Of a stretch of DNA of 43,649 nucleotides, positions 5,425 through 36,213 are shown piece by piece. The position numbers and the translations under genes were made by a program. The DNA is taken from positions 1 to 43,649 of the IMG/VR virus record IMGVR_UViG_3300043331_001582. One strand, written 5' to 3'. Numbering within the stretch: position 1 is the first letter of the stretch; the number at the start of each line of letters is the position of its first letter. The stretch comes from a virus. The notes under the pieces are model-generated. The model was not told the DNA's origin. It did no database searches and saw only the letters and a list, made by a program, of their open reading frames with translations.

Positions 5425-5486
5425 CGACCAGGTAGGCCGTGGCCGCGCAACCCGCTCCCATTCTTCCCCCTTCAGGAGACCGCAGC

Positions 5487-17568: not shown

Positions 17569-20500
17569 TTATACGGTCAGCACATCGACGACCGGCGAGC
17601 CGCCGCCGGCGCCGAGGCCACAGGAGACGTACGCTTTGCCGACTTCGGGAGCGGCGACGAGGAATCGGGGATTCGTGCTGACGATTGCGTTGTCGAGAAT
17701 GCTTTCGGCCGCGGGGTTGACAACCACGATCCGGTCGAACCCAGGGTCACTCACGTACACGAGGCCCGAGTTCGGGACGTAGATCAGTTTGACTGGACTG
17801 TTAAACGCCGTTGGGCTACCAGCCCCACCGATGGTCCTCTCGACGCCATTTGTCGAGGGATTGATAACGTGTATCAGGCGGGCGCTTTGATCGAGCGCAT
17901 ACAGGAGACCCACTCCTCCGACACCCCCGGGAACGTAGATGATATCCTGCAGAGAGATAGCGGCCGGAACGACGATCGTCCCCTCTATCGAATTGGTAAC
18001 TGGATTGATGATGGTGATCGTATCGACACCAAATATGCCGTAGATTCGTCCATTCGATGGGCAATAACACAACCCGCCGCAAACTGGATCTTCGGCAATA
18101 GAGGCGATTACCGCATCAGTATCGGGATCTACGGCCACAACGCCGTCGAGCGTACTGAAATAGAGGAGCTGAACATTGGGGGCGTAGCATTCGGCCCCGG
18201 TATCTCCAGAATCAGTATCGGGGATGCCGTCATCCGCTGGGCTACCCGCAAAAGCGGGAAGCAGCGTCTTCGGGTCAATCACGAATATTCGTTCATTGCC
18301 GACCGAGCCTTGCGATCGCGCATAGACCTTACCATTGTGCGGGCAGTAGATGACGCTGCCGAATTTGCGATTGCCGAATTGGATTGTAGCGATATGACGG
18401 TCGTTGACCGGGTTCACGACCAGTACGGCCCCACTAAAGATGTTATCCGTCGCGACAAAGAGCAGGTTGGTGTTCGGCGCCCATGCCATGCCCCACGGCT
18501 GGTCGCTGAACGATATGGTCGATAACCGCGACACCGCGCCCTGTCCGTTGGTAGACCCGAGCGGGTTGACCGTCGAGCCGTCGAGCGAGGCGGTCAGCGT
18601 CGCATAAGCGGAAGATACGCCCACCGAGTTGATCGCCTTGACCCGGAAATCGTATTGCCGGAAGAGCAGCAGGCGCGTGATGGCGAGCGACGTACCCGCC
18701 ACCCGGCCGGCGATGGCATAAGCGGAATCGGTCGACAGCTTGTACTCGACCTGGTAGTCGGACACGAAAGCCGTGGGGGAAGCGGTCCAGGACAGCGTCA
18801 CGGTGTCCCACACCGCGTCGTTCTGATCGAACGCGATCCCGCTCGGGGGCTGGACGTCGAACACGTCCGGGAGATTCGTCGCCGGGATGACCGGCGCGGT
18901 GTCGAGCGCGGCGAGGTCGTAGGGCGCGGCCTGGTATTCGCGCGCCTGGATCTCCACTTCTCCGTTCGCGAGAGGGCGCAGTCCCCGGATACGGAAGGGC
19001 TTCGCCACCCAGCCGGGGCTGGAATGCGTCACGGGGCAGACGTCCATCACTTCCGCCTTGAGCGCGGCGAGCGTCGTGCGGAAGTTCGTTGCGAGGCCGA
19101 AGCGGGAAACTTTCTCCTCGATCTGCGCGAGCTGCATCGCACGGTAATAGTTGGAGGTGAAGGGCAGCACGATCTCCCGCTCCAGCACGAGCTCGTTGTC
19201 CTCGGTGCGGTGGGCGGTGTCGTCGTAGATCGCGAGGTCCGCTTCCCAGCGCCGCTCCGGATTGAAGAAGCGCGCGCGCACCCGGTTGAACTTGTCGCGC
19301 TTGCCGGCGTTGCGGAGGGTCCAGGCGCCCACCATATTGTCCTCGTCGAAGCCGTGGGGGCCCAGGACCTCGCCGTCGGACGCGATCTCGGCGATGCCCG
19401 CGCTGTTCGCGGACTGGTTGATCGTCCACGTCTCGCCGGTGGCCGCCTCGAACGAGGTCGAGCCGGGGTGCGTGCGGGAGGCTGGATCGAAATCCGCAAC
19501 CAGTATCCCATCTATTCCGTTGTAAACCTGGGCGCGGCGGATCTTGCCTGCCAGCACATTAATCCCACCGCCGTTAGCACCGCCGATAGAAAGCTCCGCC
19601 TCTGAATTGAATATACTGGTGCTGGCTCCGATTACCGCCGTTCCCAACAATGACCAGGTATCGCCATCCTCCGAGGTCTGGAACAGTATCACTCGAAAGC
19701 CGCCGGCATTAACCCGCATCGTGACGCGAACCCAATGCGACGACCCATCGGCGAAACCAGTAGCGGCCGTGGAGCCCGCGGAGAGAGCAGTGTTGCCATC
19801 CGCGCTCCAGGCGAGTTGGAGCGCCCCCGTGATATTGATGCCAAATCGAAACGCTAGATTCGAGGTTTGCCATTTCGCAATGATGGTGCCCAATACCGCG
19901 GGGGTCCAGTCGTCCGCGGCAACGTAAGCCCGGAGGTCAATGTCTGTGGTGATGTCGAAAGACGGGCTCCATTGAGCCGACGCATAGTTCCCGGACCTGC
20001 CGGGTAGATCGAGATGGGTCGCCTCGTCCCGATCGATGCGGAGCTTGTACTGCCCTCCGCTGAAAACCAGCGTTCCCCGGCAGGACGAGAGCAGGCCGCG
20101 CAGGTTCTCCAGCCATCCGTCGTCGGGCTTCAGCACCCCGTCGCAGGTGTAGCGCTTCTGGCTGTCGGGGTTGGGGCTGCCGGCACCGGGAACGGAAACC
20201 CGGGTATCACAGTAGTTGGCGGCGTCCTTGAAGCTCCACTCCTCAATCAGGCTCGCGGCGAAGCCGCGCCCGTAGCGGCCGTTGGTGAGGTAGTCGTAGA
20301 TGCAGAGCGCGGGGTTGTTCGAAAAGGTGACGCCGCCGGTGCGAAGATCGGTCACGAGCTTCCCGTCCACGTCGAAGGTCACGGTGGGCAGCCCGCTCGG
20401 AAACGCCTCCTGACGCCACGCGAGCCGCAGATAGACATAGGCGACGCCCTTCCCCTGATGCGCGGCAGTCCAGCCGGAGACCGCGGCCTGGAGCGCCGCC

Positions 20501-20931
20501 GAGGCATCCTGCGTGTCGGTCCCGAGGTGCTTCTCGATCGTGACGAGCCCGGAAAAGCGGGCATCGGTAGAGGCGACGTCGTCGAGATAGACGGTGTTGA
20601 TCGCGGCGATCTCGCCCTCGCAGATCGCGTAGACGAGGTGCAGGTATTCCTGCTGGAACGTGGCGCCGTCGGTCACCTCGGTGAAAATGCGCGTGGCACC
20701 CACGCGCCGCGACCCGTAGATGACGGGAATGGGGTCTACCGGGCCCGAACTGTTGACGAGCGCGCCGGCGGCGGTCGAGTCGAAGCTCGACTGGCTCGGC
20801 TGCAGTGCGCGCGACAGCGCGCCGGCGGCAACTCCGCCCAGGAGCGTGGCGCCGAACGCGCCCACCACGCCGACGACGGCGGGCGCGGTGGCGATAAAGG
20901 CGCCGGCGACGGCGGGAATGACCGCGGGCAT
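17569..20931 (-). CDS. J-like tail tip / receptor-binding protein with LamG-like insert, FN3 and beta-propeller (1120 aa)
   Basis: N-terminal 310 residues resemble phage tail tip protein J: NSSGPVDPIPVIYGSRRVGA, YLHLVYAICEGEI, YDYLTNGRYGRG. Residues about 315-505 form an inserted concanavalin/LamG-like jelly roll (DGSSHWVRVTMRV, EDGDTWSLLGTA). Tail-tip sequence then resumes (RRWEADLAIYDD). An FN3 module spans about 690-785 (VTLSWTASPTAFVSDYQVEY). Residues 795-1120 contain repeats with LVVNPVNDRHIATI, TIINPVTNSIEGTIVV, HVINPSTNGVERTI, a YVTN-type beta-propeller, probably the receptor-binding head. The propeller DNA is clearly poorer in GC than its surroundings (27 of 60 at 18001-18060), suggesting acquisition. 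Confidence 0.85.
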   Translation of the reverse strand: MPAVIPAVAGAFIATAPAVVGVVGAFGATLLGGVAAGALSRALQPSQSSFDSTAAGALVNSSGPVDPIPVIYGSRRVGATRIFTEVTDGATFQQEYLHLVYAICEGEIAAINTVYLDDVASTDARFSGLVTIEKHLGTDTQDASAALQAAVSGWTAAHQGKGVAYVYLRLAWRQEAFPSGLPTVTFDVDGKLVTDLRTGGVTFSNNPALCIYDYLTNGRYGRGFAASLIEEWSFKDAANYCDTRVSVPGAGSPNPDSQKRYTCDGVLKPDDGWLENLRGLLSSCRGTLVFSGGQYKLRIDRDEATHLDLPGRSGNYASAQWSPSFDITTDIDLRAYVAADDWTPAVLGTIIAKWQTSNLAFRFGINITGALQLAWSADGNTALSAGSTAATGFADGSSHWVRVTMRVNAGGFRVILFQTSEDGDTWSLLGTAVIGASTSIFNSEAELSIGGANGGGINVLAGKIRRAQVYNGIDGILVADFDPASRTHPGSTSFEAATGETWTINQSANSAGIAEIASDGEVLGPHGFDEDNMVGAWTLRNAGKRDKFNRVRARFFNPERRWEADLAIYDDTAHRTEDNELVLEREIVLPFTSNYYRAMQLAQIEEKVSRFGLATNFRTTLAALKAEVMDVCPVTHSSPGWVAKPFRIRGLRPLANGEVEIQAREYQAAPYDLAALDTAPVIPATNLPDVFDVQPPSGIAFDQNDAVWDTVTLSWTASPTAFVSDYQVEYKLSTDSAYAIAGRVAGTSLAITRLLLFRQYDFRVKAINSVGVSSAYATLTASLDGSTVNPLGSTNGQGAVSRLSTISFSDQPWGMAWAPNTNLLFVATDNIFSGAVLVVNPVNDRHIATIQFGNRKFGSVIYCPHNGKVYARSQGSVGNERIFVIDPKTLLPAFAGSPADDGIPDTDSGDTGAECYAPNVQLLYFSTLDGVVAVDPDTDAVIASIAEDPVCGGLCYCPSNGRIYGIFGVDTITIINPVTNSIEGTIVVPAAISLQDIIYVPGGVGGVGLLYALDQSARLIHVINPSTNGVERTIGGAGSPTAFNSPVKLIYVPNSGLVYVSDPGFDRIVVVNPAAESILDNAIVSTNPRFLVAAPEVGKAYVSCGLGAGGGSPVVDVLTV

Positions 20932-24935: not shown

Positions 24936-25567
24936 CTACGTCCGCTTCCGCAGGCGGTCGAGCGAGCCCCAGATGCGGGCCGCAAGGCGGTCCGGATCCT
25001 CCTCCTCGTGGAACGGCATGAAGTCCTTCGGCCGGAACGGCGCGGCCTTGCGCTTCGGGTCGCGGTGCGTGTTGGCGATGATGGCGGCCACGATCCCCGC
25101 CCGCAGATCGGCGCGGGATTCGCCCCAGGGACTCAGGCGCGCGAGCGCCGCCCATTCCCCGAGGTGCCGCGGCCGCATCGCGGCGAGCATGGCGTCGGGA
25201 TTCGGCCAGCCGAGCTGGAGGGCGAGATCGAGGATCAGCCGGCGCCAGGGCCGGCCCCGGAGTTTTTTTCGGCGCCGTCCACGTCGAGGCCGTTCACGCG
25301 CAGCACGGCGTCAGAGAGCGGCTTCAACCTGAGCTTGGCGGTGCGCTTGAGGCGCGGGATGTCGTCATCCCCGAACATCGGCTGGCCGTCCTCCCGGAAC
25401 ACGCAGCGCACGATCATCTTCCAGCTCATGTCGGCGTTGTCGAGGAAGGCCGCGGTGTCGGCGGCCGATTCCAGCTCGCGCACGATGAGCGCGCGCCCAA
25501 GGATCTCCACGCGCTCTTCGCGCGGCGCAAGCGCCTCGAAGAGCTGCTCCTTCGCCTTGTCGCTCAT
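24936..25567 (-). CDS. Tail assembly chaperone GT (frameshift product, 210 aa)
   Basis: Reading G from ATG 25567 to the slippery AAAAAAC (25268-25262) and slipping back one base gives a fusion that continues KLRGRPWRRLILDLALQLGW, then RPRHLGEWAALARLSPWGES and NTHRDPKRKAAPFRPKDFMP. The second part matches the T domain of tail assembly chaperones. The frame offset is exactly -1. As in lambda, a small share of GT among G recruits tail tube protein to the tape measure. The T part has no start codon near its beginning. Confidence 0.88.
25235..25567 (-). CDS. Tail assembly chaperone G (110 aa)
   Basis: ATG 25567. The unshifted product: acidic and helical start (KEQLFEALAPREERVEILGR), ELESAADTAAFLDNADMSW, PRLKRTAKLRLKPLSDAVL, then ending EKNSGAGPGAG eight codons after the slip site. 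It lies between the major tail protein and tape measure genes, the standard place for G. Binds the tape measure and tube subunits during assembly; not part of the finished virion. Confidence 0.85.
   Translation of the reverse strand: MSDKAKEQLFEALAPREERVEILGRALIVRELESAADTAAFLDNADMSWKMIVRCVFREDGQPMFGDDDIPRLKRTAKLRLKPLSDAVLRVNGLDVDGAEKNSGAGPGAG
25262..25268 (-). promoter_or_regulatory. Programmed -1 frameshift site A-AAA-AAC
   Basis: On the minus strand the zero-frame codons are GAA AAA AAC; the heptamer A AAA AAC fits the X-XXY-YYZ rule. It lies in a G+C-rich context that continues with CTCCGGGGCCGGCCC, able to fold as a stimulatory structure. Confidence 0.85.
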
Positions 25568-25571
25568 GGGA

Positions 25572-25985
25572 CTACTCGACCGCCCCGGTGATCTCGAGCG
25601 TGCAGCTCGCGGACACCTTCTCGTTCACGGCGCCGGACTCGGAGAGCGCGGCGACGTGGGCGGAGAACTGGCGTTGCGGGAGCGTCCCGTCGGCCTTCCG
25701 GATGCGGTAGGCGCGCAGCGTCCCGGCCTCGAAGTCCTCGCGCAGGCGCTGCTGCGGGCCGTTGTCCTGGACGACGTTGTACTGGAACGTCACCTGGCCG
25801 CCGTCGGGAACGCCGACCAGCTTCTCGGCCCAGGCGGAGTCGAAGCTCGTCGCGTCGATGGATGGCGCCGACATCGAGGGGCCGTCGTAGCCGGTCACTT
25901 CCCCGATGGTCTCGAAGGCATCGGGGCTGCCCCCCATGGCGCGCTCGAACAGAATCAGCTTGGTGTGGATTGCAGAGGTGGACAT
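25572..25985 (-). CDS. Major tail (tube) protein (137 aa)
   Basis: ATG 25985. Short tube-type sequence: TSAIHTKLILFERA, GEVTGYDGPSMSAPSIDATS, WAEKLVGVPDGGQVTFQYNV and a C-terminal KVSASCTLEITGAVE. The pattern AP-x-IDATSFDS...GGQVTF is typical of small siphoviral tail tube proteins (lambda V-like N-terminal domain without the Ig domain). Located between tail terminator and G genes as expected. Confidence 0.85.
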   Translation of the reverse strand: MSTSAIHTKLILFERAMGGSPDAFETIGEVTGYDGPSMSAPSIDATSFDSAWAEKLVGVPDGGQVTFQYNVVQDNGPQQRLREDFEAGTLRAYRIRKADGTLPQRQFSAHVAALSESGAVNEKVSASCTLEITGAVE

Positions 25986-26038
25986 TGCTTGCTCCTTTTT
26001 TGGGCGAGTGAGTAATGTGCGGCGAGCAACCGAGCGGT

Positions 26039-26437
26039 TTAGCTCTCGCTCACCATCAGGCTGAAGTCCTGCGACACGCGGTAGAGCCGCGGGTCGACGT
26101 CGTCCTCGTAGAATTCGGCGTCCGAAATGAGCCAGCCGCCGAAGGCGGCCCCGTTCTCGACAACGCGCTTCACTTCCATCGCCAGCTCGCGCGCGGCTTT
26201 CCGCGTCGTCGCCCACGCATCCACCTGGATGCGCGGGGCATCGATCCCGCCCCCGGCGTCGAACGAGTTCACGCGCGGATTCGCGATGCGCTGGAAGGTG
26301 ATCGCCGGCAGCCCCGTGTTCTGCGGCAGCACGATCGGGTAGATGCGGAAGTTCGCTTCCCCGTCCACGCGGGTATGCGTCTGGACGGCCGCATCACCCT
26401 CCAGCGCCGAGAGCAGCAGTTCCTCGGCGGTCGCCAT
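26039..26437 (-). CDS. Tail terminator/completion protein, DUF3168-like (132 aa)
   Basis: RIYPIVLPQNTGLPAITFQR, APRIQVDAWATTRKAAREL and the ending LYRVSQDFSLMVSES match DUF3168 tail completion proteins, which form the ring closing the tail tube. Start ATG 26437 overlaps the previous stop by one base. It is separated from the head-tail adaptor genes by the 6.8-kb glycan cassette, an unusual gap in the order. Confidence 0.85.
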   Translation of the reverse strand: MATAEELLLSALEGDAAVQTHTRVDGEANFRIYPIVLPQNTGLPAITFQRIANPRVNSFDAGGGIDAPRIQVDAWATTRKAARELAMEVKRVVENGAAFGGWLISDAEFYEDDVDPRLYRVSQDFSLMVSES

Positions 26438-26652
26438 CAGCGTAGCCCCCGGAACGGCAGGGATTCGCGGGTGGCGAGATTGGGGTCGGGGGCGGGCGCG
26501 CGCGCGGCCCGATCCGCACGCCGGAGCTTGCGCACGAGCCTCCCGAACTTCTCGACGTCCATGCGCAGCTTCAGGATCAGCGCGAGCATCCAGCCCTGCA
26601 GGCAGAGCACGCCAATGACCGCGACGGCGGTGAGGATCCCGTCCATCCCCAA
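26437..26652 (-). CDS. Small membrane protein (71 aa)
   Basis: One transmembrane helix at residues 6-27 (ILTAVAVIGVLCLQGWMLAL) followed by a strongly basic amphipathic region (KLRMDVEKFGRLVRKLRRAD). Start at 26652 or at the second Met (26646). No known family; it separates the glycan cassette from the tail genes. It may anchor one of the cassette enzymes to the membrane, but no evidence proves this. Confidence 0.6.
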   Translation of the reverse strand: MGMDGILTAVAVIGVLCLQGWMLALILKLRMDVEKFGRLVRKLRRADRAARAPAPDPNLATRESLPFRGLR

Positions 26653-26656
26653 TCCC

Positions 26657-27283
26657 TCAATCGAACGAGAGGATCACGTCGCTGCGGATCCTCTGCCTGA
26701 CGATGGCGCCCCACGACGCGAGCAGGTCGAGCGCGGCGCGGGGCTCGACCGCGTAGCGGCCGGGAAAGGCCTTCTCCTCGATCACCATCACCGGCCGGCA
26801 CGCCTTCACCGTGCGCTCGGCGCCGAGCAGCGCGAAATACTCGTGGCCCTCGAGGTCGAGCTTGAGGAAGTCGAGATGCGCGATCGCCAGCTCATCGAGG
26901 CGTTCCACCGGGCAGCCCGAGCCCTCGCCGAGGTAGCGCGCGCCGGTGTTGCCGGGGCGGGAGGGGTCGTCCACCATGACGCCGGTGCGACGGCAGGCGC
27001 CGAGCGCCATGCGCAGCGTATGCACGTTGGGGAGGCCCGCGACGTTGCGTTCGAGGCAGGCGTAGGTGTCCGGGGCGGGCTCGAACGCGATCACGTCCTC
27101 GAAGCGCCCCGCCAGCTGGGCCGACCAGGTGCCGATGTGCGCGCCCCCGTCAACCGCGGTGCGGAACTGCCGCACGTGGGCGAGCGCCGCGTCCAGCTTC
27201 TCGATTTCGAAGCCGCGGACGGTGAGCCGGCCGGCGAAATAGGTGTCCGCGTCCGGCAGCCGCCAGTGACCGTCGGTTTTCAT
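26657..27283 (-). CDS. FkbM-family methyltransferase 1 (208 aa)
   Basis: RTAVDGGAHIGTWSAQLAGR is SAM-binding motif I, VIAFEPAPDTYACLERNV motif II, and LDFLKLDLEGHEYFALLGAE the typical FkbM core (KLDxEGxE). FkbM enzymes O-methylate sugars or polyketides. Start taken at ATG 27283, which has GGAGG five bases upstream; ATG 27301 in frame makes a TGATG junction with the upstream gene and would add six residues. Last gene of the glycan cassette in transcription order. Confidence 0.85.
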   Translation of the reverse strand: MKTDGHWRLPDADTYFAGRLTVRGFEIEKLDAALAHVRQFRTAVDGGAHIGTWSAQLAGRFEDVIAFEPAPDTYACLERNVAGLPNVHTLRMALGACRRTGVMVDDPSRPGNTGARYLGEGSGCPVERLDELAIAHLDFLKLDLEGHEYFALLGAERTVKACRPVMVIEEKAFPGRYAVEPRAALDLLASWGAIVRQRIRSDVILSFD

Positions 27284-27300
27284 GCCGCCCTCCGCGCCCA

Positions 27301-28098
27301 TCACGCCCGCCAGTAGGCGATGTCGCGGTTGACGAGCAGGTGCTGCAGCGGGGTCTTGCCCTTCTCCTTGCTCGCGCCCTTGAGGTGATCCATGTAGCGG
27401 CCCAATTCGCTGTTGACGAAGGGCTGGTGGCGGGACTGATGCGCGATCCGGTGCACCGCGATATCGCGACGGCGGCGCAGCCAGTCGAAAACCCACGAGT
27501 CGTGCCACTCCTTCAGCTCGAACACCCGACCGCTCGAATACAGCCCGGCAAAGGCCGCGATGAAGCCGCGCGCATCGGGGTGGTCGAGGTTGTAGCCCAC
27601 GAAACCGCACTCGCTGTGATACTCGCCGCGATCCAGGCAGGAGAGCGCGGCCCCCTCCGGCAGCATGCGCTCGAAGAGGACGGGCGGGACCGGCGCGAAA
27701 GTGACGACGTCGGCATCCACCCAAAATAGCCTGCCCCCGCGGATCGGCTCCGCGGCCGCCTCGATCGCGAACACTTTTTTAGCGAAGCGGTAGGCGTCGT
27801 AGCGGAAGTTGTAGCCCCCGGCAATCTTCTTCGGCGTCCAGCCGTGGTCGGTGTCCAGCCTGACGCGTCCCTGCGCGCGCTCGCTCGCGGCATGCTGCGC
27901 GAGGAAGGGATGATGGAGCAGTCGGAACGTGACCCGGGCGTCGACGCCGCGCCCCGGTCCGCGCAGGACATGAAGGTCCTCGGAGTAGACGATGAGCGTG
28001 ACGGCCGCGGGCCAATGCTCGCAGAACGTCTCGACAAAACGCCGCCCGTATTGCTCCCAGCCCGCCGCCGAGCAGGAGGTGACAACCGTGGTATCCAC
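27301..28098 (-). CDS. Glycosyltransferase-like protein with DxD motif (265 aa)
   Basis: GT-A-like layout: TTVVTSCSAAGWEQYGRRFV start, ADVVTF preceded by LFWVDAD (DAD at 128-130), and a later part YNLDHPDARGFIAAFAGLY with HDSWVFDWLRRR. The DxD motif binds metal and nucleotide sugar in GT-A glycosyltransferases. The whole-length similarity is to phage/bacterial nucleotide-diphospho-sugar transferases; specificity unknown. Three bases separate it from the GT8-like gene upstream. Confidence 0.75.
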   Translation of the reverse strand: MDTTVVTSCSAAGWEQYGRRFVETFCEHWPAAVTLIVYSEDLHVLRGPGRGVDARVTFRLLHHPFLAQHAASERAQGRVRLDTDHGWTPKKIAGGYNFRYDAYRFAKKVFAIEAAAEPIRGGRLFWVDADVVTFAPVPPVLFERMLPEGAALSCLDRGEYHSECGFVGYNLDHPDARGFIAAFAGLYSSGRVFELKEWHDSWVFDWLRRRRDIAVHRIAHQSRHQPFVNSELGRYMDHLKGASKEKGKTPLQHLLVNRDIAYWRA

Positions 28099-28101
28099 GC
28101 C

Positions 28102-28827
28102 TCACGCCTCGGCGGCACCCAGGACCTCGGTTTCGGCGGGGCGCGGCGGACGGGAAAACTCGCCGCGGTTGTCGTAGTCGAGCAGCAGCCGCTTCTCCTC
28201 GTACCATTCGGCGGAGAATTCGCAATACTGGAACTTCTTGAAGCAGGGCGTGCCGAGGGTGAAATGCACGAGCTTCGCGTCCGGGTTGGGCTCGTACTCC
28301 CCGACCAGGTGGTTCCACGCCCGCGGCAGGCCCCAGATCAGGCCCGCGGCGAGCCACTTGAACTGGTGCAGATCGAGACCGGTCGCGGTGTTCACGTATT
28401 CCGGCGTCAGGGCCCGGCAAGCGGGGTTGTTGAACACCATGACGCTTGACCAGTTTTTGCAGGGATAGGCGATCTGTGGCCGGTCGAGGAACTTGGTCTC
28501 GCCGACCGGCGTGTAGTCGTGCTTCACCACCGCCACCGCCTGGTCGCGCGGCAATTCGGCCAACAGGCCGAGTATGTCGGCCCGGCAAAGCATGTCGCAG
28601 TCGAGGAACACCGACCGGCCCTCGTAGTCGCACAGCCACGGCACCAGGAAACGCGAGAACGCGAACTCGGTGCTCTGCCGGGGGTCCCGCTCCCGCCACA
28701 TCGGGAGCTGCGGCAGCCGCAGCCCGGTGATCGAGACGGGCCGCGAGGCGTGCCGCAGGATCGAATGGGCGAGGACGTGGAAAGCGACGGTCTCGGCGGG
28801 GTCGTAGCCGATAAAAACCCGGATCAT
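28102..28827 (-). CDS. GT8-like glycosyltransferase (241 aa)
   Basis: RVFIGYDPAETVAFHVLAHS at the start and SVFLDCDMLCRADI (DCD 76-78) are the signatures of GT8-type or related GT-A retaining glycosyltransferases; TEFAFSRFLVPWLCDYEGR also fits. The C-terminus has a Trp/His region (AWNHLVGEYEPNPDAKLVHF) common in this family, where His-Phe may bind metal. It would add a sugar from a nucleotide donor. ATGA overlap with the FkbM-like gene upstream. Confidence 0.82.
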   Translation of the reverse strand: MIRVFIGYDPAETVAFHVLAHSILRHASRPVSITGLRLPQLPMWRERDPRQSTEFAFSRFLVPWLCDYEGRSVFLDCDMLCRADILGLLAELPRDQAVAVVKHDYTPVGETKFLDRPQIAYPCKNWSSVMVFNNPACRALTPEYVNTATGLDLHQFKWLAAGLIWGLPRAWNHLVGEYEPNPDAKLVHFTLGTPCFKKFQYCEFSAEWYEEKRLLLDYDNRGEFSRPPRPAETEVLGAAEA

Positions 28828-29504
28828 GCGAACACCCAGTAGGGCTTGAGCCGCGAAACAATCCGGTAGCCGAGCCGGTCCATGAGCAGGTCGAAGATGT
28901 CCTGTTGCGTCGCCTGGTAATGCGCCAGCGCCTTCTTCATGACCACCGTCAGCACGGGCCGGTGGCGTTTCAGCGTCTCCACGGCGCCTCCCAGGACGGC
29001 GAACTCCATCCCGTTCACGTGCACCTTCATGTAGTCGATGGCCGCGAGCGCCTGGACCTCGGGCAGGTCGTCGAGGCGGCGCAGCGGCACCGGTCCATCG
29101 AGCATGCCCTGCACCTCGCGGTCGAGCGATCCCTTCCGCCCGCCCACGGCGACCCTCCCCGTGACGGCGCCGAGCGCGCAGTGCACGGCGACGGCGTTGG
29201 GCCAGGGCTCGAGATTCCGGGCGAGGCAGGCCGCGGTATCGGGATGCGCCTCGATCGCCAGCACGCGCTGGAAGCGCGGGGCAAGCGCCCGGCTCCAGTG
29301 CCCGACGTGCGCGCCGCACTCGACCGCCGCGCGCCACCGCCTCACGTGCTTCATCGCATCCTGGAAGCGATCGCAGTTGTAGAATGCCTCGCCCCGGAGC
29401 TGGTGCGCGAGGGCCTTGGTGATGATCTCCCCGTCGGGATACCACAGGCCGTCGAACTGAAACGCGCCCGGGCCCGGGATCTCGCGTCCGGCGACGAGCT
29501 TCAC
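28824..29504 (-). CDS. FkbM-family methyltransferase 2 (226 aa)
   Basis: AAVECGAHVGHWSRALAPRF (motif I), VLAIEAHPDTAACLARNLE (motif II) and AIDYMKVHVNGMEFAVLGGA (FkbM core with NGME replacing EGxE) show a SAM-dependent O-methyltransferase. It is a distant paralogue of the enzyme at 26657-27283, with a changed core motif, so its acceptor may differ. It lies between the GT8-like gene and the fused GT-methyltransferase gene. Confidence 0.82.
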   Translation of the reverse strand: MKLVAGREIPGPGAFQFDGLWYPDGEIITKALAHQLRGEAFYNCDRFQDAMKHVRRWRAAVECGAHVGHWSRALAPRFQRVLAIEAHPDTAACLARNLEPWPNAVAVHCALGAVTGRVAVGGRKGSLDREVQGMLDGPVPLRRLDDLPEVQALAAIDYMKVHVNGMEFAVLGGAVETLKRHRPVLTVVMKKALAHYQATQQDIFDLLMDRLGYRIVSRLKPYWVFA

Positions 29505-29511
29505 GGCGGCG

Positions 29512-31014
29512 TCATTCCTCCGAGCGGAACGTCAGCACGACTTCGACGCCCGATGCGGCGCGGATCGCCCAATGGGCGAACTTCTCGTAACCGCCCCCGG
29601 GGATGGGCTTCGATACATCGAATTCGCGCTCGACGCGCCCGCCCGTCAGCTCGCAGGTCTTGTCGATCCACCATTTGCGCGGACGCTGGGTCAGGTGGCA
29701 GTTGCGCCCGTCCGGCAGGAACTTGCGCGCCGGCCCGGTGTAGATGCAGAAGAACGCGAACCGAGCGCCATACTCGATCGCCTCGCGATACACCGCCTCC
29801 ACCGCCTCGGGCGGCACGTGCTCGATCACGTCGGTGCAGATGACCCCGTCGAACCGGCCGGCGGGCTTGACATCGATCCCGGGGACGGCCGGGTCGTAGC
29901 AGGCGGGCACCAGCCCGCCCCATGCCTCCTGCACCTTCCACTCGGTGTACTGCGCGCCCTTGCCGCTACCATAGTCGAGGAGGCTTTCCGGCCGGTGGCG
30001 GTGGATCAGGTCGGTCAGCGCCTCGATGTGTCCCTTGATCGAGGCCCCACGGAAAACCTTGGCGGACTCGTGCATGGCGCGGTATTGCGCGATGACGCAT
30101 TCGAGCGGCGGCAGGCCCGCCCAGTTCACCTGGTCCTGTTTCATCGTGAAAGGCGCGGTGACGGCCCAGGCCGTCCCGTCCTGCATCTCCTCGAGGTTGA
30201 ACTGGCAGTACGCGAGGTCGGAGAGCCAGCGGAGCCGCTCGTCATCGCCCGGGAACGGCGCGTCATAGACCCGCTCGACGCCGTGGCCGGCCACCCGGTA
30301 GGCGGCGCTGCATCCCTCGTGCGAGATCAGCACCGCGGGCACTCCGGCGATCACCGCCTCCACGGCGGCATTGGATCCATGCGTCACCAGCGCCTGGCAT
30401 TCCGGGAGCAGCGCGGCAAGCCGCTCCTGCGGGCCGGAGAAGCGCGTATCCGGGATGGGCCGCACTTCCTCGGGATGATTCGCCGCCCATGACGGCTTCG
30501 GGCGGTAGTAAAGGGGCAGCGTCGAGTGCGTCTGCTTGTTGATCGCGTGACAGGCGCTCTTCGCGTACTCGCTCGCATCACCGAGCTCGTGCCAGTTGCA
30601 GTATTTCTGCGAGCTGCCGGCGTAGATCAGGTGCTTGCCCCGCGCGCGCTTCGGGCGCACCTCGATGCGGAACTCGTCGCGGAGCTTCCGCCAGCGGTCA
30701 TCCGGCCGCGGCGTCGCGTGCAGGTAGGCGGGCTGGAAACCGTCCACCGAGACCCGGTAATACTCGCCGCGGCCGAAATAGCTCTTGTCCACCAGCATGC
30801 AGTGGCGCTCGCCGCGGCGGTAGGCGGCCATGATGCGCTTCGAGCGCCCCTTGACGCCGACCACCACCGCGAGCTGGGTCTCCCAGTCGGGGCGCACGAA
30901 GTCCTGCGTGCGCACGACCTCGACCGTCTCGCCGTGGCGGCGGAAGCCCTCCGCAAGCGCGGCGCCGATCGCGTCCTCGCGCGCCTTCTCGGACAGGTAG
31001 AGCGTGATCTTCAT
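29512..31014 (-). CDS. GT-B/capsule-like domain fused to a SAM methyltransferase (500 aa)
   Basis: Residues 1-310: LYYRPKPSWAANHPEEVRPI, CQALVTHGSNAAVEAVIAGV, LAYCQFNLEEMQDGTAW resemble capsule-type (KpsS/KpsC-like) glycosyltransferases with the TH-x-SNA...GxP nucleotide-sugar site. Residues about 340-500: ESLLDYGSGKGAQYTEWKV and CTDVIEHVPPEAVEAVYREA are a class I SAM methyltransferase. The two activities in one chain imply that the same glycan is extended and methylated. First domain is paralogous with the next two genes. Function beyond family is inference. Confidence 0.78.
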   Translation of the reverse strand: MKITLYLSEKAREDAIGAALAEGFRRHGETVEVVRTQDFVRPDWETQLAVVVGVKGRSKRIMAAYRRGERHCMLVDKSYFGRGEYYRVSVDGFQPAYLHATPRPDDRWRKLRDEFRIEVRPKRARGKHLIYAGSSQKYCNWHELGDASEYAKSACHAINKQTHSTLPLYYRPKPSWAANHPEEVRPIPDTRFSGPQERLAALLPECQALVTHGSNAAVEAVIAGVPAVLISHEGCSAAYRVAGHGVERVYDAPFPGDDERLRWLSDLAYCQFNLEEMQDGTAWAVTAPFTMKQDQVNWAGLPPLECVIAQYRAMHESAKVFRGASIKGHIEALTDLIHRHRPESLLDYGSGKGAQYTEWKVQEAWGGLVPACYDPAVPGIDVKPAGRFDGVICTDVIEHVPPEAVEAVYREAIEYGARFAFFCIYTGPARKFLPDGRNCHLTQRPRKWWIDKTCELTGGRVEREFDVSKPIPGGGYEKFAHWAIRAASGVEVVLTFRSEE

Positions 31015-31033
31015 CGGCTCGTCAGATCGGCAC

Positions 31034-31136
31034 GTCCGGGCTCCTGCTCCGTCTTGCGCCCGGCGGGTCCGGGCTCCCCTCTGTCCAGACGTCTCGACTG
31101 TCTTCTCGTTTTGCGCCCGGAGGGTCCGGGCTCCCC
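31034..31136. repeat. Hairpin repeats between paralogous glycan genes
   Basis: In the 126-base gap, two 26-base copies (31054-31079 and 31111-31136) differ at one base; each contains GCCCGG-A/C-GGG-T-CCGGGC type inverted arms (perfect GCCCGGA/TCCGGGC in the second). A third partial copy, GTCCGGGCTCC, lies at 31034-31044. No U-run follows, so they are not standard terminators. Confidence 0.7.
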
Positions 31137-31140
31137 ACCC

Positions 31141-31992
31141 TCAAATCAGCCCCTCTTCCCGCAGATGGCCCCAGGCCGTCCCGTCCGCGATCTCGCCGGT
31201 CCGGAACTGGGTGTAGGCCGCGTCAAACAGGAGCTGGTCACGCCGCGCGGCGTCCGGGCGGGGCGGGGACTCGACGCCGGCGAGATCCCGGCCCGCCAGC
31301 GCGGCCGCGATGCCATCGGTCGTGAACGCCGGCACGCCGGCGAGCAGTGCATCCAGCGCCGAGTTACCGTGGTGCGTCACCACCGCCCAGCAGCCGGCGA
31401 GCCGCCGCGCGCCCAGCGGTTCCGCGTCGGGCGCGAAGGTCGTGCCCGGGATCGGGCGCGCCTCCTTCCACGACGGCTTCGGCCGGTAAACGATCGGCCG
31501 CCCCGTGTGCCGGCGCAGCTCGTCCACCGCCGCCCGTTCCCACGCCTCCGGCTCCAGGCCGTAAACCCAGGCCGCTTTCCCGCTCATGCCGCAGAGCAGG
31601 ATGAACTCGCCGTCGCGACGGAACGGCCGCGGCTCGAGCCCGAACACGCCGAAGCGGTCGGCCGGGTGCGCGATGCGCTGGAAGTAGTGCGTCGCGTGCA
31701 GTCCGTTCACCACGAAGCGGTGGTAGCCCGCCATCTTGTCGCCGTTCCATATCCGCCCCCAGTAGCCGAGGTCCACCAGCACGCTCTTCCGCCCCGCCGC
31801 GACGTATTCCTCCCGGATGCGCTTCAGCGGCGGCCACAGCCCGTAGAACACCGCGACGTCGGCCTCGGGGCCGCCGTAGCCGTGCACCCGGCGCAACTCC
31901 ACCGGCTGGCCGTGCCGCGCGCACCCCGCCACGACCGCCTGGCCGATCTTCTGGCCGCGCAGGTTGGCGTTGACGTAGAAGACGACCTTCAC
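31141..31992 (-). CDS. GT-B/capsule-like glycosyltransferase paralogue (283 aa)
   Basis: GTG 31992 gives a GTGA overlap with the upstream stop. Contains PIVYRPKPSWKEARPIPGTT, WAVVTHHGNSALDALLAGVP and LFDAAYTQFRTGEIADGTAW, the same ordered motifs as the genes on both sides, so the three arose by tandem duplication. RPKPSW and TH-x-x-N-A/S-...-AGVP are the putative nucleotide-sugar/acceptor region of capsule-type transferases. Probably adds another sugar to the same glycan. Confidence 0.75.
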   Translation of the reverse strand: MKVVFYVNANLRGQKIGQAVVAGCARHGQPVELRRVHGYGGPEADVAVFYGLWPPLKRIREEYVAAGRKSVLVDLGYWGRIWNGDKMAGYHRFVVNGLHATHYFQRIAHPADRFGVFGLEPRPFRRDGEFILLCGMSGKAAWVYGLEPEAWERAAVDELRRHTGRPIVYRPKPSWKEARPIPGTTFAPDAEPLGARRLAGCWAVVTHHGNSALDALLAGVPAFTTDGIAAALAGRDLAGVESPPRPDAARRDQLLFDAAYTQFRTGEIADGTAWGHLREEGLI

Positions 31993-32783
31993 GCCGGCAC
32001 GGCCGCCGCATCGAGCAGCCGGCGGAACGGCTCCCCGCTCGCGATCTCGGCGAGCGTCCACTGCGCGCACGCCAGCCGCTCGAAGGCCGGCCGGCGGTCG
32101 GTGAGTAGCGGGTCGTCAACCCGGGACAGGTCTCGTTGCCCGGCCGCGGCCAGTATCCAGTGCGGCGCCTCGTAGAACACCGGGATGCCCGCGATCAGCG
32201 CGTGCGTGCCGGCGTTCGAGGCCCAGGTCACCACCGCCCAGCAGCCGGCGAGGTCCTTCTCGAGCGGCACCACCGGCGGCTGGTTGCCGGGGTGCGGCCG
32301 GATGCGGACCGGGCGCCGCGTGACGCGCTGGAGGCGCGCCGCGACGTCCCGCGCCCAGTCCGGGTGCTGCGCGTAGTGCTTCGGCCCGATGCCGCGCTGC
32401 GGGCACACCAGCACGTGGTGCCCCCGCCCCCGCCAGGGCTGCAGCTCCACCCCGAGGGCCCGCCACCGCGCCCCGTCGTCCGCCGGCCAGGTGCCCCCGC
32501 CGTTGTGCTGCGAGAGCGCGAGCGCGTAGTGCTGCTTGCCGTTGCCGTCGTTGCCGAGATAGCCGTTCTCGGCCACGATCACGCGCCCGCCGGCCCGCTC
32601 GAAGGCGTCCGCCATGCGCTCCCAGTGGGCGTAACGGTTCCACAGGATGAGCACGTCCCCGCGGCGCGCCTCGGACCCCGCCGGCTCGCCGCGCGTGAAG
32701 CCGAGGCCCGCCGCCGCGATCCCGGCGAGAAAGGCCTCGCGCCGGTAGTGCACCTGCTCGCGGATCAGGCACCAGCAGCGCAT
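31989..32783 (-). CDS. GT-B/capsule-like glycosyltransferase paralogue (264 aa)
   Basis: ATG 32783 lies inside the 3' end of the DUF115 gene (19-base overlap). Motifs: PVRIRPHPGNQPPVVPLEKD, WAVVTWASNAGTHALIAGIP, LACAQWTLAEIASGEPF, third member of the paralogous set, with RPHP and TW-x-SNA variants. Earlier part has VIVAENGYLGNDGNGKQHYA, typical of these phage proteins. The variant motifs suggest a different donor or acceptor. Confidence 0.75.
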   Translation of the reverse strand: MRCWCLIREQVHYRREAFLAGIAAAGLGFTRGEPAGSEARRGDVLILWNRYAHWERMADAFERAGGRVIVAENGYLGNDGNGKQHYALALSQHNGGGTWPADDGARWRALGVELQPWRGRGHHVLVCPQRGIGPKHYAQHPDWARDVAARLQRVTRRPVRIRPHPGNQPPVVPLEKDLAGCWAVVTWASNAGTHALIAGIPVFYEAPHWILAAAGQRDLSRVDDPLLTDRRPAFERLACAQWTLAEIASGEPFRRLLDAAAVPA

Positions 32784-33505
32784 GGGGCACTGACGGCTGA
32801 CGGCTGGCGGCCGGCAGCTGACAGCGCGTCCGCGAGCTGCGCCCGCGGAAAGCACTGGATCGCCGAGCCCGGGGTGCAGTTCAGCACCCGGATGGCGCGC
32901 GCCGCCAGCGGATCTACCAGGCTGGTGAACGGCGGCAGCATCGTGTTGGCGAAGTCCTGCTCCGGCGTCGCCCGGTGATGCGCCATGTGCCAGTGCGTGC
33001 GGCCGTTGACCGCCCGCATATCGAAGCCGAGCAGGAGCAGGGCCGCGTCGCACTCCACCAGATGCGCCGCCAGGTTGATCGCCTGGTAGCCGGAGCTCCT
33101 GCCGGTATGGACGCCGTCGCGGATCCCGCACAGCCCCGGCATATGCCCGTAGTTCTGCAGCACCCGCACCGCGCGCTCGCGGCCGTGGGTGCAGGCGTTG
33201 GCGAGCGCGGCCTTGACGCCGGCAAAGGCGTGGTAGCGCGCGTCGCCAGCGTGGCGGACCGGCTCCACCTTCGCCCCGCGCTGCCGCTCCTCGAGGCCGC
33301 CGTGGTGCCAGATCCACCACACCTGATCGGAGAAATACAGCAGGTCCGCCCACGGCGCGAGCCAATAGGCGTTGTTCACGGCGATCACTCGGCAACGGCC
33401 GCGGAGCCGGTCCACCTGGTCCTGGGTGAGGCTGGGCCCGCCGCCCAGGATCGCGACGGTCTCGCCCTTCCATTCGGGCTCGACCCGCCAGTACGGGATC
33501 TTCAC
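32765..33505 (-). CDS. DUF115/MAF-like protein, possible sugar transferase (246 aa)
   Basis: ETVAILGGGPSLTQDQVDRL, CRVIAVNNAYWLAPWADLLY and ALLLLGFDMRAVNGRTHWH are the Rossmann-type motifs of DUF115/MptE-like proteins, related to motility accessory factors that add nonulosonic acids in flagellin glycosylation. Start at GTG 33505 preferred; a longer form from 33529 overlaps the head-closure gene. First gene of the cassette in transcription order; it directly follows the virion genes. Confidence 0.75.
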   Translation of the reverse strand: MKIPYWRVEPEWKGETVAILGGGPSLTQDQVDRLRGRCRVIAVNNAYWLAPWADLLYFSDQVWWIWHHGGLEERQRGAKVEPVRHAGDARYHAFAGVKAALANACTHGRERAVRVLQNYGHMPGLCGIRDGVHTGRSSGYQAINLAAHLVECDAALLLLGFDMRAVNGRTHWHMAHHRATPEQDFANTMLPPFTSLVDPLAARAIRVLNCTPGSAIQCFPRAQLADALSAAGRQPSAVSAPCAAGA

Positions 33506-33507
33506 GG

Positions 33508-33837
33508 CTACGCCAGGACCTCGACGCACATCAGCTGCAGCTCGCGCCCCATCTCCTGGAAGTTGAGCACGGCCTCGATGCGGAAGATGCGGCCGGCGAC
33601 GTCGTCGCGCACCCGCATCTTCGGCGATACCCCGCTCACGTAGTGCCCCGTCAGCCGGTGGGTGGTCTCGGCCGAGACCTGCTGCGCCGCGAAGAACTCA
33701 CGCCCGGAGAGCGGGTCGATCGCGCAGCGCCAGGGCTTGAACGTGGACCAGGTCTGGACCGGCTGGCCGTGCCCGTCGCGCACCTCGGTCGCCTGCTGGA
33801 GGGTGACCGGGTGGCGGTAGCGTCCGCTCCTGAGCAT
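33508..33837 (-). CDS. Head-tail adaptor / head closure protein (109 aa)
   Basis: RSGRYRHPVTLQQATEVRDG, WSTFKPWRCAIDPLSGREFF, HRLTGHYVSGVSPKMRVRD and FRIEAVLNFQEMGRELQLMC match the SPP1 gp16/HK97 gp7-like head-tail adaptors (Phage_H_T_join). It forms the ring that closes the portal after packaging. Lies after the connector gene as in HK97-type phages. Confidence 0.88.
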   Translation of the reverse strand: MLRSGRYRHPVTLQQATEVRDGHGQPVQTWSTFKPWRCAIDPLSGREFFAAQQVSAETTHRLTGHYVSGVSPKMRVRDDVAGRIFRIEAVLNFQEMGRELQLMCVEVLA

Positions 33838-33841
33838 GGCA

Positions 33842-34477
33842 TCAGGACGACAGCCGGAAGTCGATCACGCGGTGGCGCCACAGCAGCCACTTCGCGCCCT
33901 GCGGGAGCTGCACCGCCTGCAGCCCCGCGCCGGCCATCACTTCGTCGCGGTTGTTGTAGAGGTGGCCGATCACGAGCTTCATCGCCTGCTTCACGCTCTC
34001 CGGCACGCCGGCGGCGTAGTCGGCCGGGCTGCCGGCGTCGTCGACCGGATAGCCGGCGACGTAGCTCACGATGACCGCGTTCATGCGCGATTTCGTCGCG
34101 GGCCAGCTCTGGTCCGGCGCCGGGCGGATGCGCGCGGGCTCGCTCTTGTCGTCCACCTCGAAGTTGTCGGAGCCGAGCTCCTGCAGCGCGTTGTCCGCGT
34201 CGTAATACTGAATCGAGTTGACCCGGATCAGCGGCGGATTGGGGAGCCGGATCTCCTGGTAACCGCCGCGGGAGAAGGCGTCGAGCCGCAGCTCGAAGGT
34301 GGACCAGACGAAGCAGCGGTTGGTCTCGATCTCGCAGGCCTCGCGCGCCGCGGTGACGAGCGCCGAGAAGAGGTCGTCGTCGTCCGCGTGCGTGACGTTG
34401 CAGTGCGCCTTCGCCTCCGCCACCGTGATCGGCTCCTGCGCCGGGCCCGAGGCCCGGAAAATGCTGTAGCCGTCCAT
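33842..34477 (-). CDS. Head-tail connector protein, phiE125 gp8-like (211 aa)
   Basis: EPITVAEAKAHCNVTHADDD, ALVTAAREACEIETNRCF, RLPNPPLIRVNSIQYYDADN and VPESVKQAMKLVIGHLYNNR are characteristic of gp6/gp8-like connectors (Phage_gp6-type) that bind the portal. Typical length is about 190-210 residues. Position between capsid and head-closure genes is canonical. Confidence 0.88.
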   Translation of the reverse strand: MDGYSIFRASGPAQEPITVAEAKAHCNVTHADDDDLFSALVTAAREACEIETNRCFVWSTFELRLDAFSRGGYQEIRLPNPPLIRVNSIQYYDADNALQELGSDNFEVDDKSEPARIRPAPDQSWPATKSRMNAVIVSYVAGYPVDDAGSPADYAAGVPESVKQAMKLVIGHLYNNRDEVMAGAGLQAVQLPQGAKWLLWRHRVIDFRLSS

Positions 34478-34483
34478 GACGCG

Positions 34484-34696
34484 CTACCTGAAGAGCCCTC
34501 CGAGGGCCCCGCGCTTGCGGCGCGGCCGTGCGGCCGCGGTCTCCGGCGCACGGGTGACTGCCGTTTCCGGCTCGCCCTCCACCGCCGCGGCATAGCCGAG
34601 CGAGATCAGGTGCCGGGCAAGCTGGTCGTTCACCTCCCGCACCTGGCCCGGCGCGGCGCTGATGGCGGAACTCGACTGCAGGATGCGGATCTTCAT
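34484..34696 (-). CDS. Small hypothetical structural-region protein (70 aa)
   Basis: KIRILQSSSAISAAPGQVREVNDQLARHLISLGYAAAVE in pieces resembles the short beta proteins found beside the capsid gene, with a Pro/Arg-rich C-terminus (RPRRKRGALGGLFR). Upstream of ATG 34696 there is a run of nine G (34709-34701) in place of a normal ribosome site, four bases from the start. Probably a head accessory protein. Confidence 0.6.
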   Translation of the reverse strand: MKIRILQSSSAISAAPGQVREVNDQLARHLISLGYAAAVEGEPETAVTRAPETAAARPRRKRGALGGLFR

Positions 34697-34721
34697 GGGA
34701 CCCCCCCCCGGAAAGGCGCTG

Positions 34722-34756
34722 AAAAAAGAAACCGCCCCGAGCCGAGGGGCGGTTTC
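34722..34756 (-). terminator. Terminator after the major capsid gene
   Basis: Arms GAAACCGCCCC (34728-34738) and GGGGCGGTTTC (34746-34756) with a 7-base loop; on the minus strand followed by a T-run (A at 34722-34727). It sits between the capsid gene and the connector genes, so it may reduce expression of downstream genes relative to capsid, with read-through. Confidence 0.88.
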
Positions 34757-34776
34757 TGGACGTCAGCGTCCGTCGC

Positions 34777-36213
34777 TTACGATTGCGGCGAGCCGGTGAC
34801 CAGGTGACGGATCGGGTCCGTGCCCGCGTCGAGCAGGTCGCCGTCGTGGCGGGAGAACAGGAAGAACCCGATCTGCCCGAAGTCGGCGTAGCGCTCGTTG
34901 AGCCGCAGGATGACGGGGCCGGCTTCCGTGCCGACCACGTCGCGGACCTTGTATTTCTTGAAGTCGCCGAAGTAGATCGCCTTGCCCCCCGCGGTCGTCG
35001 GCTGCGCCACGTCCTGGTTGACCGTGAACGGGTAGCCGTAGATCATGTCCGGGCTGCGCCCGTCGATGCCGAGGTGCCACAGCGGCTGGCCGTTCGAGTC
35101 CACCATCCGCTTGAGGTTGCGCAGCATCGTGTCGTGGAACATCCAGCGCGCGTTGCGCCGGCGCGCCGGGTCCACCGAGTGCTCGAGCAGCGTGAGGTCG
35201 GTGATCGTCGTCGCGGTTCCCGAGCCCATCGTGCCCGAGGAGCTGGTCGCCGTGGCCACGCCGTTCGGCTGCGAGGAGCCGGTGCCGGTGGTGAACGCGG
35301 TATTGAGCCCCCGCGCCAGACGCTCCGCGAGCGCCTCGTTGATATAGGCGTTCACGTCGAACTGCCAGTCCTGCACGAACTCGCGCGAGACCAGCACGAA
35401 CGAGCGGTAGGTATAGGCGTCCAGCGTCATGCTGCTGAACGTCGGGTCCACCGAGGTGGTCGTCTGCGTCGCCTCCGTCACCAGCGTCGCGGTGTTGGCG
35501 GTGTCGCTCACCGTCGGGAACGTCAGTTGCCCGCCTCCGCCGGTGCGGATCACGTCCGCCGCTTCCCGCATGCCGCCGAAAGCGAGCATGTTCTTGTCGA
35601 GCTCGTTCCAGTACTCGCGCGGGATCACGACGCCGGAGGTGCTGGTGGCGAGATCGCGTGCCTCGCGCATCATGCCGCGCATGTCGCGCGTGGCCGCCGC
35701 GATGTGGCTCTCCATACCCTTGAGGTTCGCCGCCGGAAGCACCGCCCGCCCCTCGTCGGACAGGCCCTCGTAGCCGAGACGGATGAAGGTCTCGACCGCG
35801 CAACGCACCTGCTCGGCGCGCTCCTTCGGGTCGCCCGAGAGGCGCGGATGCGGCTGGTGGCCGCCGCGGCCGCGGCTGTCGAGCTCGGACTCGATGTCGG
35901 CCTCGCGCTCGATCTGGTCGATCGTGCGCTTGGCTTCGTCGATGTCCTTGAAGGCCTTCTCGTTGGCCTCCAGGAGCTCGCGCCGGCGCGCTTCGTTGGT
36001 CTCCGCCTTGGCGATCTCCGCCAGGTTGGCCTTGACCAGCTCGTGGTTGCGCACCCGCCCTTCGCGCAACTGCTTCGCCAGCGCCAGGTTGGCTGCCATC
36101 AGCACCTGGTCCGGGCTCAGCTGGGAAAACACCGCGGACGCTTCGGGCGCGAATGCCAACGCGAGCGCGGTCACCGCGAGGATCGCGGCAAACGTCACAT
36201 AGTGCGATTTCAT
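34777..36213 (-). CDS. Major capsid protein, HK97 fold, with signal-peptide-like N-terminus (478 aa)
   Basis: C-terminal 290 residues are HK97-type: TSTSGVVIPREYWNELDKNM, GGQLTFPTVSDTANTATLVT, AYTYRSFVLVSREFVQDWQF, LNTAFTTGTGSSQPNGVATA and GYPFTVNQDVAQP. Residues 60-115 are a charged coiled coil (delta/scaffold domain), expected to be cleaved by the prohead protease. Odd: residues 1-27 (FAAILAVTALALAFAPEASA) read like a Sec signal peptide with an A-x-A site; a cytoplasmic assembly protein should not have one. An internal Met39 could be the true start, but the ribosome site is better for the outer ATG. Confidence 0.9.
   Translation of the reverse strand: MKSHYVTFAAILAVTALALAFAPEASAVFSQLSPDQVLMAANLALAKQLREGRVRNHELVKANLAEIAKAETNEARRRELLEANEKAFKDIDEAKRTIDQIEREADIESELDSRGRGGHQPHPRLSGDPKERAEQVRCAVETFIRLGYEGLSDEGRAVLPAANLKGMESHIAAATRDMRGMMREARDLATSTSGVVIPREYWNELDKNMLAFGGMREAADVIRTGGGGQLTFPTVSDTANTATLVTEATQTTTSVDPTFSSMTLDAYTYRSFVLVSREFVQDWQFDVNAYINEALAERLARGLNTAFTTGTGSSQPNGVATATSSSGTMGSGTATTITDLTLLEHSVDPARRRNARWMFHDTMLRNLKRMVDSNGQPLWHLGIDGRSPDMIYGYPFTVNQDVAQPTTAGGKAIYFGDFKKYKVRDVVGTEAGPVILRLNERYADFGQIGFFLFSRHDGDLLDAGTDPIRHLVTGSPQS

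Follow-up and report, generated by a model that had tools for sequence, protein, structure and literature searches.

A candidate virion-glycosylation cassette in the late operon of an HK97-type siphovirus, with related gene sets beside the head genes of diverse phages

Organization of the locus

The sequence analysed here, referred to as the window, is the 43,649-bp IMG/VR virus record IMGVR_UViG_3300043331_001582. Pfam and PHROG profile matches reveal on its minus strand the canonical gene order of an HK97-type siphovirus, comprising small and large terminase, portal, protease, major capsid protein, adaptor, Hc1 head closure, tail terminator, tail genes, and central fibre. The slot between Hc1 and the tail terminator holds a cassette of eight genes, g1 to g8 (33505-26657), which are all open and all lie on the minus strand, the strand of the late genes, just as the initial annotation had described. 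Starts and stops within the cassette overlap or nearly do so, the sole exception being g3 and g4, which are 126 bp apart. The features of the region are as follows, in the order of transcription.

34727..34757, minus strand: terminator-like hairpin with a T-run, just 3′ of the major capsid gene and before adaptor, Hc1, and cassette (consensus match only)
33508..33837, minus strand: Hc1 head closure, upstream boundary of the cassette (PF05521, E=3.5e-24; phrog_25)
32765..33505, minus strand: g1, DUF115/MptE-like, GT42-like (phrog_4603, 'alpha-2,3-sialyltransferase', E=1.7e-39)
31989..32783, minus strand: g2, GT-B-like, CMP-binding (K/R)xHP motif present as RPHP (alignment, motif test)
31141..31992, minus strand: g3, GT-B-like, motif reads RPKP (AlphaFold2 pLDDT 89.7; Foldseek to KpsC, E=2.6e-9)
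31015..31140, minus strand: sole gap within the cassette, with GC-rich repeats (GAGCCCGGACC.CCGGGCGCAA), missing in the L085/L089 relative
29512..31014, minus strand: g4, fusion of a GT-B-like half (about residues 1-300) with a class I SAM methyltransferase (about residues 310-470) (phrog_24759, E=3e-20)
28824..29504, minus strand: g5, FkbM-family methyltransferase (PF05050, E=5e-13, above cut-off)
28102..28827, minus strand: g6, GT8-like GT-A glycosyltransferase with a DCD (DxD) motif (phrog_28018, E=2.7e-46)
27301..28098, minus strand: g7, GT-A glycosyltransferase of a family not in Pfam, fold nearest GT6, motif WVDADV (AlphaFold2 pLDDT 89.2)
26657..27301, minus strand: g8, FkbM-family methyltransferase (PF05050, E=2.1e-15)
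26437..26646, minus strand: 69-codon open reading frame separating g8 from the tail terminator, with a hydrophobic N-terminal stretch
26039..26437, minus strand: tail terminator, downstream boundary of the cassette (PF11367, E=5e-12; phrog_347)

The number of terminator-like hairpins in the region is not above that in shuffled sequences. Codon usage of the cassette matches that of the virion genes. A scan of all cassette proteins for stretches of 19 residues with hydrophobicity above 1.6 found no membrane-like segment, and no gene for sugar-nucleotide synthesis was found in the cassette. The window also encodes an integrase and an HTH-type regulator, which make a temperate life plausible.

Enzyme families of the cassette

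The PHROG match of g1 spans residues 21-230, and the sialyltransferase activity named in that profile is predicted only. Taken alone, g1 scores 12.7 bits against the DUF115/MptE profile PF01973, below the cut-off of 34.6; the same profile is matched at E<=1 by 21 of 23 g1 relatives (best 2.4e-8), and g1 is therefore considered a distant relative of the DUF115/MptE-like proteins. Conserved motifs of g1 include GPSLT, NSGYQAVNLA, and LLGYD.

The genes g2 and g3 and the N-terminal half of g4 are GT-B-like paralogues. Neither g2 nor g3 has a Pfam match, and those of g4 are weak (DUF6716 and Methyltransf_23). The fold predicted for g3 by AlphaFold2 was found by Foldseek to be nearest to KpsC, WbbB, and KrkA, which are CMP-Kdo transferases, and within a viral library the model matches proteins of CcrColossus and of uncultured phages. 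The resemblance to these retaining enzymes, KpsC (GT107), WbbB (GT99), and KrkA (GT140), extends from the modified GT-B fold predicted for g3 to the CMP-binding (K/R)xHP motif, which is present in g2 and in 96 of 211 relatives, with g4 reading RPKP, as g3 does. In contrast, the catalytic Asp of the QxxxD motif (motifs as defined in PMC12887879 and PMC10148158) is missing at the aligned position in every one of the 211 sequences. Assignment of g2-g4 to the retaining Kdo transferases, as members of GT107 or GT99, was rejected on this ground, and the three are at most CMP-sugar-type enzymes. With a fold like that of KpsC and WbbB but without their catalytic Asp, the cassette GT-B enzymes appear from their sequences to form an undescribed family.

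Full-domain matches to PF05050 place both g5 (50 bits) and g8 (57.7 bits) in the FkbM family, well above the cut-off of 22.7. The enzyme encoded by g6 can be called GT8-like only, as its match to the GT8 profile PF01501 (E=0.0044, 17.1 bits) is below the cut-off of 24.3; its relatives occur in 103 viral stretches. No Pfam match was found for g7, the predicted structure of which comes nearest to GT6 enzymes of the ABO/alpha-1,3-GalT type (Foldseek E=7e-9, TM about 0.5, 10% identity). In its WxDAD motif, D128 and D130 do not vary across the aligned sequences. Relatives of g7 on Rhizobium megaplasmids adjoin transporters and regulators, with no phage genes nearby, and offered no clue to function. 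Profile searches of PDB sequences with g1, g3, and g7 returned no credible relative; the predicted structures support the identification of g3 and g7 as glycosyltransferases.

The families listed in the initial annotation, namely DUF115, three GT-B-like, two GT-A-like, and two FkbM genes, have thus been upheld, but the list had overlooked the methyltransferase fused to g4, which brings the methyltransferase domains of the cassette to three.

Conservation and recurrence beside head genes

A search for the same cassette at the same spot in other phages, proposed with the initial annotation, found one relative (L085/L089) with capsid, adaptor, and Hc1 proteins 73%, 57-58%, and 53% identical to those of the window. 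Downstream of its Hc1 gene lie g1, g2, g3, g4, g5, and the start of g6, in unchanged order and at 53-74% identity, with the g4 fusion kept (66% and 74% in L089), g5 retained at 53%, and the counterparts of g3 and g4 overlapping. Between the window and this relative, g1-g5 differ about twice as often at codon position 3 as at position 2, as do the virion genes, a pattern indicating that g1-g5 are probably under selection on protein sequence. The cassette is more than a chance assembly, since the order of g1-g5 and the g6 start is kept and the differences show this twofold bias towards position 3. More distant relatives have the slot without the cassette: a Caulobacter vibrioides prophage (L148; capsid about 40% identical) has capsid, adaptor, Hc1, one open reading frame, and tail terminator in succession, and the cassette is likewise absent from a Chromobacterium locus (L149).

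These observations bear on one of the least favoured explanations, in which the cassette is a mobile insertion that is neutral to the phage and under no selection for a role in it; the empty slots in related prophages and the variable cassette content would fit it, yet the kept gene order, the virion-like divergence of codon positions in g1-g5, and the virion-like codon usage make it highly improbable.

A scan of viral loci with the L085 copy of g1 as query returned 60 loci, and pooling these with other loci left, after dereplication, 42 contigs or records that carry a relative of g1. Hallmark genes were labelled with iterated profiles, and the adaptor label was checked; in Tetraselmis viridis virus S20, for example, the adaptor is 6828-7481 and not 5769-6335. 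A g1 relative stands beside a head or connector hallmark on the same strand in 38 of the 42, which are related sequences rather than independent events. Flanking hallmarks were identified on both sides of g1 in 27 of the 42, with the capsid-adaptor slot the commonest (18); other slots are portal-adaptor, adaptor-Hc1, and Hc1-tail terminator, the last being that of the window. As 355 of 561 capsid pairs have no BLAST match, this placement of g1 spans very different phages. The enzymes around it vary, with 23 combinations among the 42 contigs or records, and in 11 of these, some of which are fragments, g1 is accompanied by no other recognised cassette gene.

Of 59 g1 loci, counted before dereplication, 19 have a collagen-like stretch just ahead of g1. 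The Bradyrhizobium elkanii phage plasmid pUSDA31-2 encodes a collagen protein (PF01391, E=1.5e-35) between the portal gene and a DUF115-led set, in the order portal, collagen protein, DUF115-GT8-GT9-MT...GTB, adaptor. Related enzymes also occur elsewhere in phage genomes: in T4-like contigs they adjoin the UvsX/UvsY recombination genes rather than head genes, in one case beside a heptose kinase/adenylyltransferase gene, and in Pelagibacter phage Mosig they lie outside the head operon. Head-operon placement is therefore a property of g1-led sets and not of all such enzymes. The existence of similar sets beside the shell genes of unrelated viruses suggests that these viruses sugar-coat their own particles.

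Comparison with known systems

The suggestion that no described system fits the cassette, made with the initial annotation, is not supported. Phage-encoded glycosyltransferases of mycobacteriophages such as Che8, Corndog, and Myrna are reported to glycosylate capsid and tail-tube proteins (Freeman et al. 2023, as cited in PMC11600133, PMC12363180, and PMC12619734), and cluster O mycobacteriophages carry an O-methyltransferase gene followed by three tandem glycosyltransferase genes (Freeman et al. 2023, as cited in PMC11600133). The cassette shares with these systems the combination of phage glycosyltransferases and a nearby methyltransferase gene. The mycobacteriophage sets reported so far are smaller, and glycosylation was shown there, whereas here it is deduced from the genes. 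In tblastn searches of phage records with g1, g2, g4, g6, and g7 (1e-5), no mycobacteriophage was among the organisms listed, and the hosts of cassette relatives are mostly Gram-negative. Virion glycosylation is thus known by experiment from mycobacteriophages, and the DUF115-led head-operon arrangement is undescribed in the literature searched, which included few subscription journals.

Related enzyme genes in the relative order of the cassette are found in the late region of Caulobacter jumbo phages. In the lytic CcrColossus and CcrBL9 and their relatives, DUF115, two GT-Bs, GT8, a methyltransferase, and a GT9-like gene lie between tail-protein and lysis genes, following a large tail-protein gene rather than occupying the Hc1-tail terminator slot of the window; g7 and the FkbM pair were not found in these phages. 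A term search of PMC3556154, the genome paper of 2012, found no discussion of this set. Tetraselmis viridis virus S20 (NC_020840) has two DUF115, glycosyltransferase, methyltransferase, and FkbM genes among its capsid, adaptor, and Hc1 genes, in the capsid-adaptor and adaptor-Hc1 slots, with glycosyltransferases mostly unlike those of the window.

A bacterial counterpart exists in flagellin glycosylation islands, in which FkbM genes and glycosyltransferase-methyltransferase fusions adjoin flagellin genes (PMC4875605). These variable sets of glycosyltransferase, FkbM, and fusion genes beside the structural gene of their acceptor are organised like the cassette (PMC4875605). The acceptor there is flagellin and many islands make the sugar donor, whereas the cassette has neither donor synthesis nor flagellin.

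Proposed function and acceptors

The cassette probably serves to build, in the cytoplasm of the cell late in infection, a short and methylated glycan on a protein of the virion. Support for this reading comes from enzyme families and folds with intact catalytic motifs, the lack of membrane segments, strand and gene packing, the conserved slot, and recurrence beside head genes, together with the mycobacteriophage precedent and the organisation of flagellin islands; the claim of the initial annotation that a glycan-building and methylating cassette lies within the virion operon gains strength from the relatives beside capsid and connector genes of unrelated phages. Soluble enzymes would glycosylate and methylate the protein in successive steps. 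The product of g1, the part of the set with a fixed position, would be the protein-directed, initiating transferase, and g2, g3, and the N-terminal half of g4 may use CMP-activated sugars, perhaps host CMP-Kdo or a sialic-acid-like sugar. Further sugars would be added from UDP-type donors by g6 and g7, and hydroxyls may be methylated by the C-terminal half of g4, g5, and g8. Because the cassette has no sugar-nucleotide synthesis gene, the host would have to supply the donors. The resulting glycan coat is proposed to benefit the phage by altering recognition, adhesion, or stability.

A virion acceptor is favoured, though unproven, by placement beside capsid and collagen-like genes; gene adjacency does not prove that the product of a neighbour is the substrate. 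Surface-exposed proteins of the head are the best candidates for the acceptor, namely the capsid protein, a decoration protein, or in some relatives a collagen-like protein, with tail proteins less likely. For one group of loci a collagen-like protein would make an attractive acceptor, but the window encodes no such protein. Several loci encode, between capsid and g1, a small basic protein rich in S and P that looked like an acceptor, but it is missing from the window. Capsid C-termini adjoining cassettes share no sequon-like tail, and alignment of the window capsid with those of two cassette-free relatives revealed no insert.

Alternative functions

The main rival to virion glycosylation is late modification of the lipopolysaccharide or lipooligosaccharide core, or of a glycolipid on the cytoplasmic face, which might for example block re-adsorption of progeny to debris or exclude other phages. 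It owes this position to the GT8-like, GT9-like, Kdo-transferase-like, and sialyltransferase-like enzymes, which typically build the lipopolysaccharide core and can work without spanning the membrane, and it would also accommodate the related enzymes that T4-like phages carry away from their head operons, once with a heptose kinase/adenylyltransferase gene. Core modification is nonetheless unlikely: it leaves unexplained why diverse phages place g1 next to capsid, collagen-like, and connector genes, late expression would allow little time for envelope remodelling, and flippase and polymerase are missing from the cassette.

Expression in the lysogen to alter the host surface, as by gtr cassettes, would be in keeping with the integrase and HTH-type regulator, yet the cassette is embedded in the virion operon and shares its strand. 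A gtr serotype-conversion cassette needs a membrane flippase and a bactoprenol-linked transferase, whereas the cassette of the window encodes no membrane protein. No sigma-70-like promoter was found in 25500-35000, which counts weakly, as 0.5 would be expected by chance. The initial annotation had already argued against lysogenic conversion, and its argument is reinforced by the related sets in obligately lytic phages, the Caulobacter jumbo phages; such a role is very improbable.

Glycosylation of hypermodified phage DNA has even less to recommend it. We know of no hypermodification pathway in which DUF115 or FkbM enzymes take part, and the placement of the cassette with late head genes argues in the same direction. 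A thymidylate-synthase-type hydroxymethylase gene (PF00303) is absent from the record, which is possibly incomplete. Precedent exists in phage glycosyltransferases that are reported to act on DNA (Pyle et al. 2024, as cited in PMC12619734).

Implications for phage biology

Beyond the window, a broader view is advanced tentatively and with less assurance than the function proposed for the cassette itself: unrelated phages of Gram-negative hosts may share a widespread, modular form of virion glycosylation led by the DUF115/GT42-like protein, a protein glycosyltransferase anchored next to capsid or collagen-like head genes, in which interchangeable glycosyltransferases and methyltransferases, including CMP-sugar-type GT-B enzymes that lack the known nucleophile, would build lineage-specific coats. 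If true, glycosylation of tailed-phage particles would be a modular trait over many phages of Gram-negative hosts and no peculiarity of mycobacteriophages, with the Caulobacter phages and the Bradyrhizobium elkanii phage plasmid as cultured candidates, and a DUF115-like gene adjoining the capsid gene would serve as a simple genomic marker. The cassettes would also hold candidate new glycosyltransferase families, and their function would explain many phage genes now annotated as 'sialyltransferase' or FkbM without a role.

Features around the cassette and elsewhere in the window

34727-34757, minus strand: terminator-like hairpin and T-run, immediately 3′ of the capsid gene
31015-31140: GC-rich repeats in the sole intra-cassette gap
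17569-20931, minus strand: central tail fibre, whose C-terminal portion resembles repeated beta-propeller (YVTN-type) units when judged by eye
5439-12546, plus strand: ParB-like protein, C5 cytosine methylase, and large integrase/invertase-type recombinase

The hairpin could set capsid output higher than that of downstream genes, including the cassette. In the gap between g3 (GT-B-like) and g4 (GT-B-like in its N-terminal half), a 17-nt GC-rich repeat occurs three times, with two of the copies lying inside a 30-nt repeat; these repeats are missing from relatives, in which g3 and g4 overlap. The three genes at 5439-12546 point to a possible temperate or plasmid-like lifestyle for this virus.

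Related loci in other contigs

Several loci encode a further protein next to g1, the DUF115-like gene. A collagen-like protein gene lies immediately 5′ of the g1 relative in L090-L101, L103, L109, L111, L113-L115, L147, and L151, and its product is a possible glycosylation acceptor. Between capsid and g1, adjoining the 5′ side of the latter, L120, L128, L141, and L143-L146 encode a small, basic protein whose C-terminus bears an S/P-rich motif resembling SSQPAPASxKKT.

T4-like contigs (L021, L035, L073, and others) carry arrays of GT8 and GT-B genes, with convergent FkbM and g7 (predicted GT6-like fold) genes; the arrays adjoin UvsX/UvsY-like genes, assigned as UvsX/UvsY in L035. In another contig, L031, one gene hints at ADP-heptose as donor:

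L031, 5131-5895: heptose kinase/adenylyltransferase-like gene (phrog_7878), immediately before a GT8 gene

The 67-kb plasmid pUSDA31-2 (L151) of Bradyrhizobium elkanii USDA 31 combines a complete phage virion operon with a DUF115-led cassette, offering a culturable test system for such cassettes.
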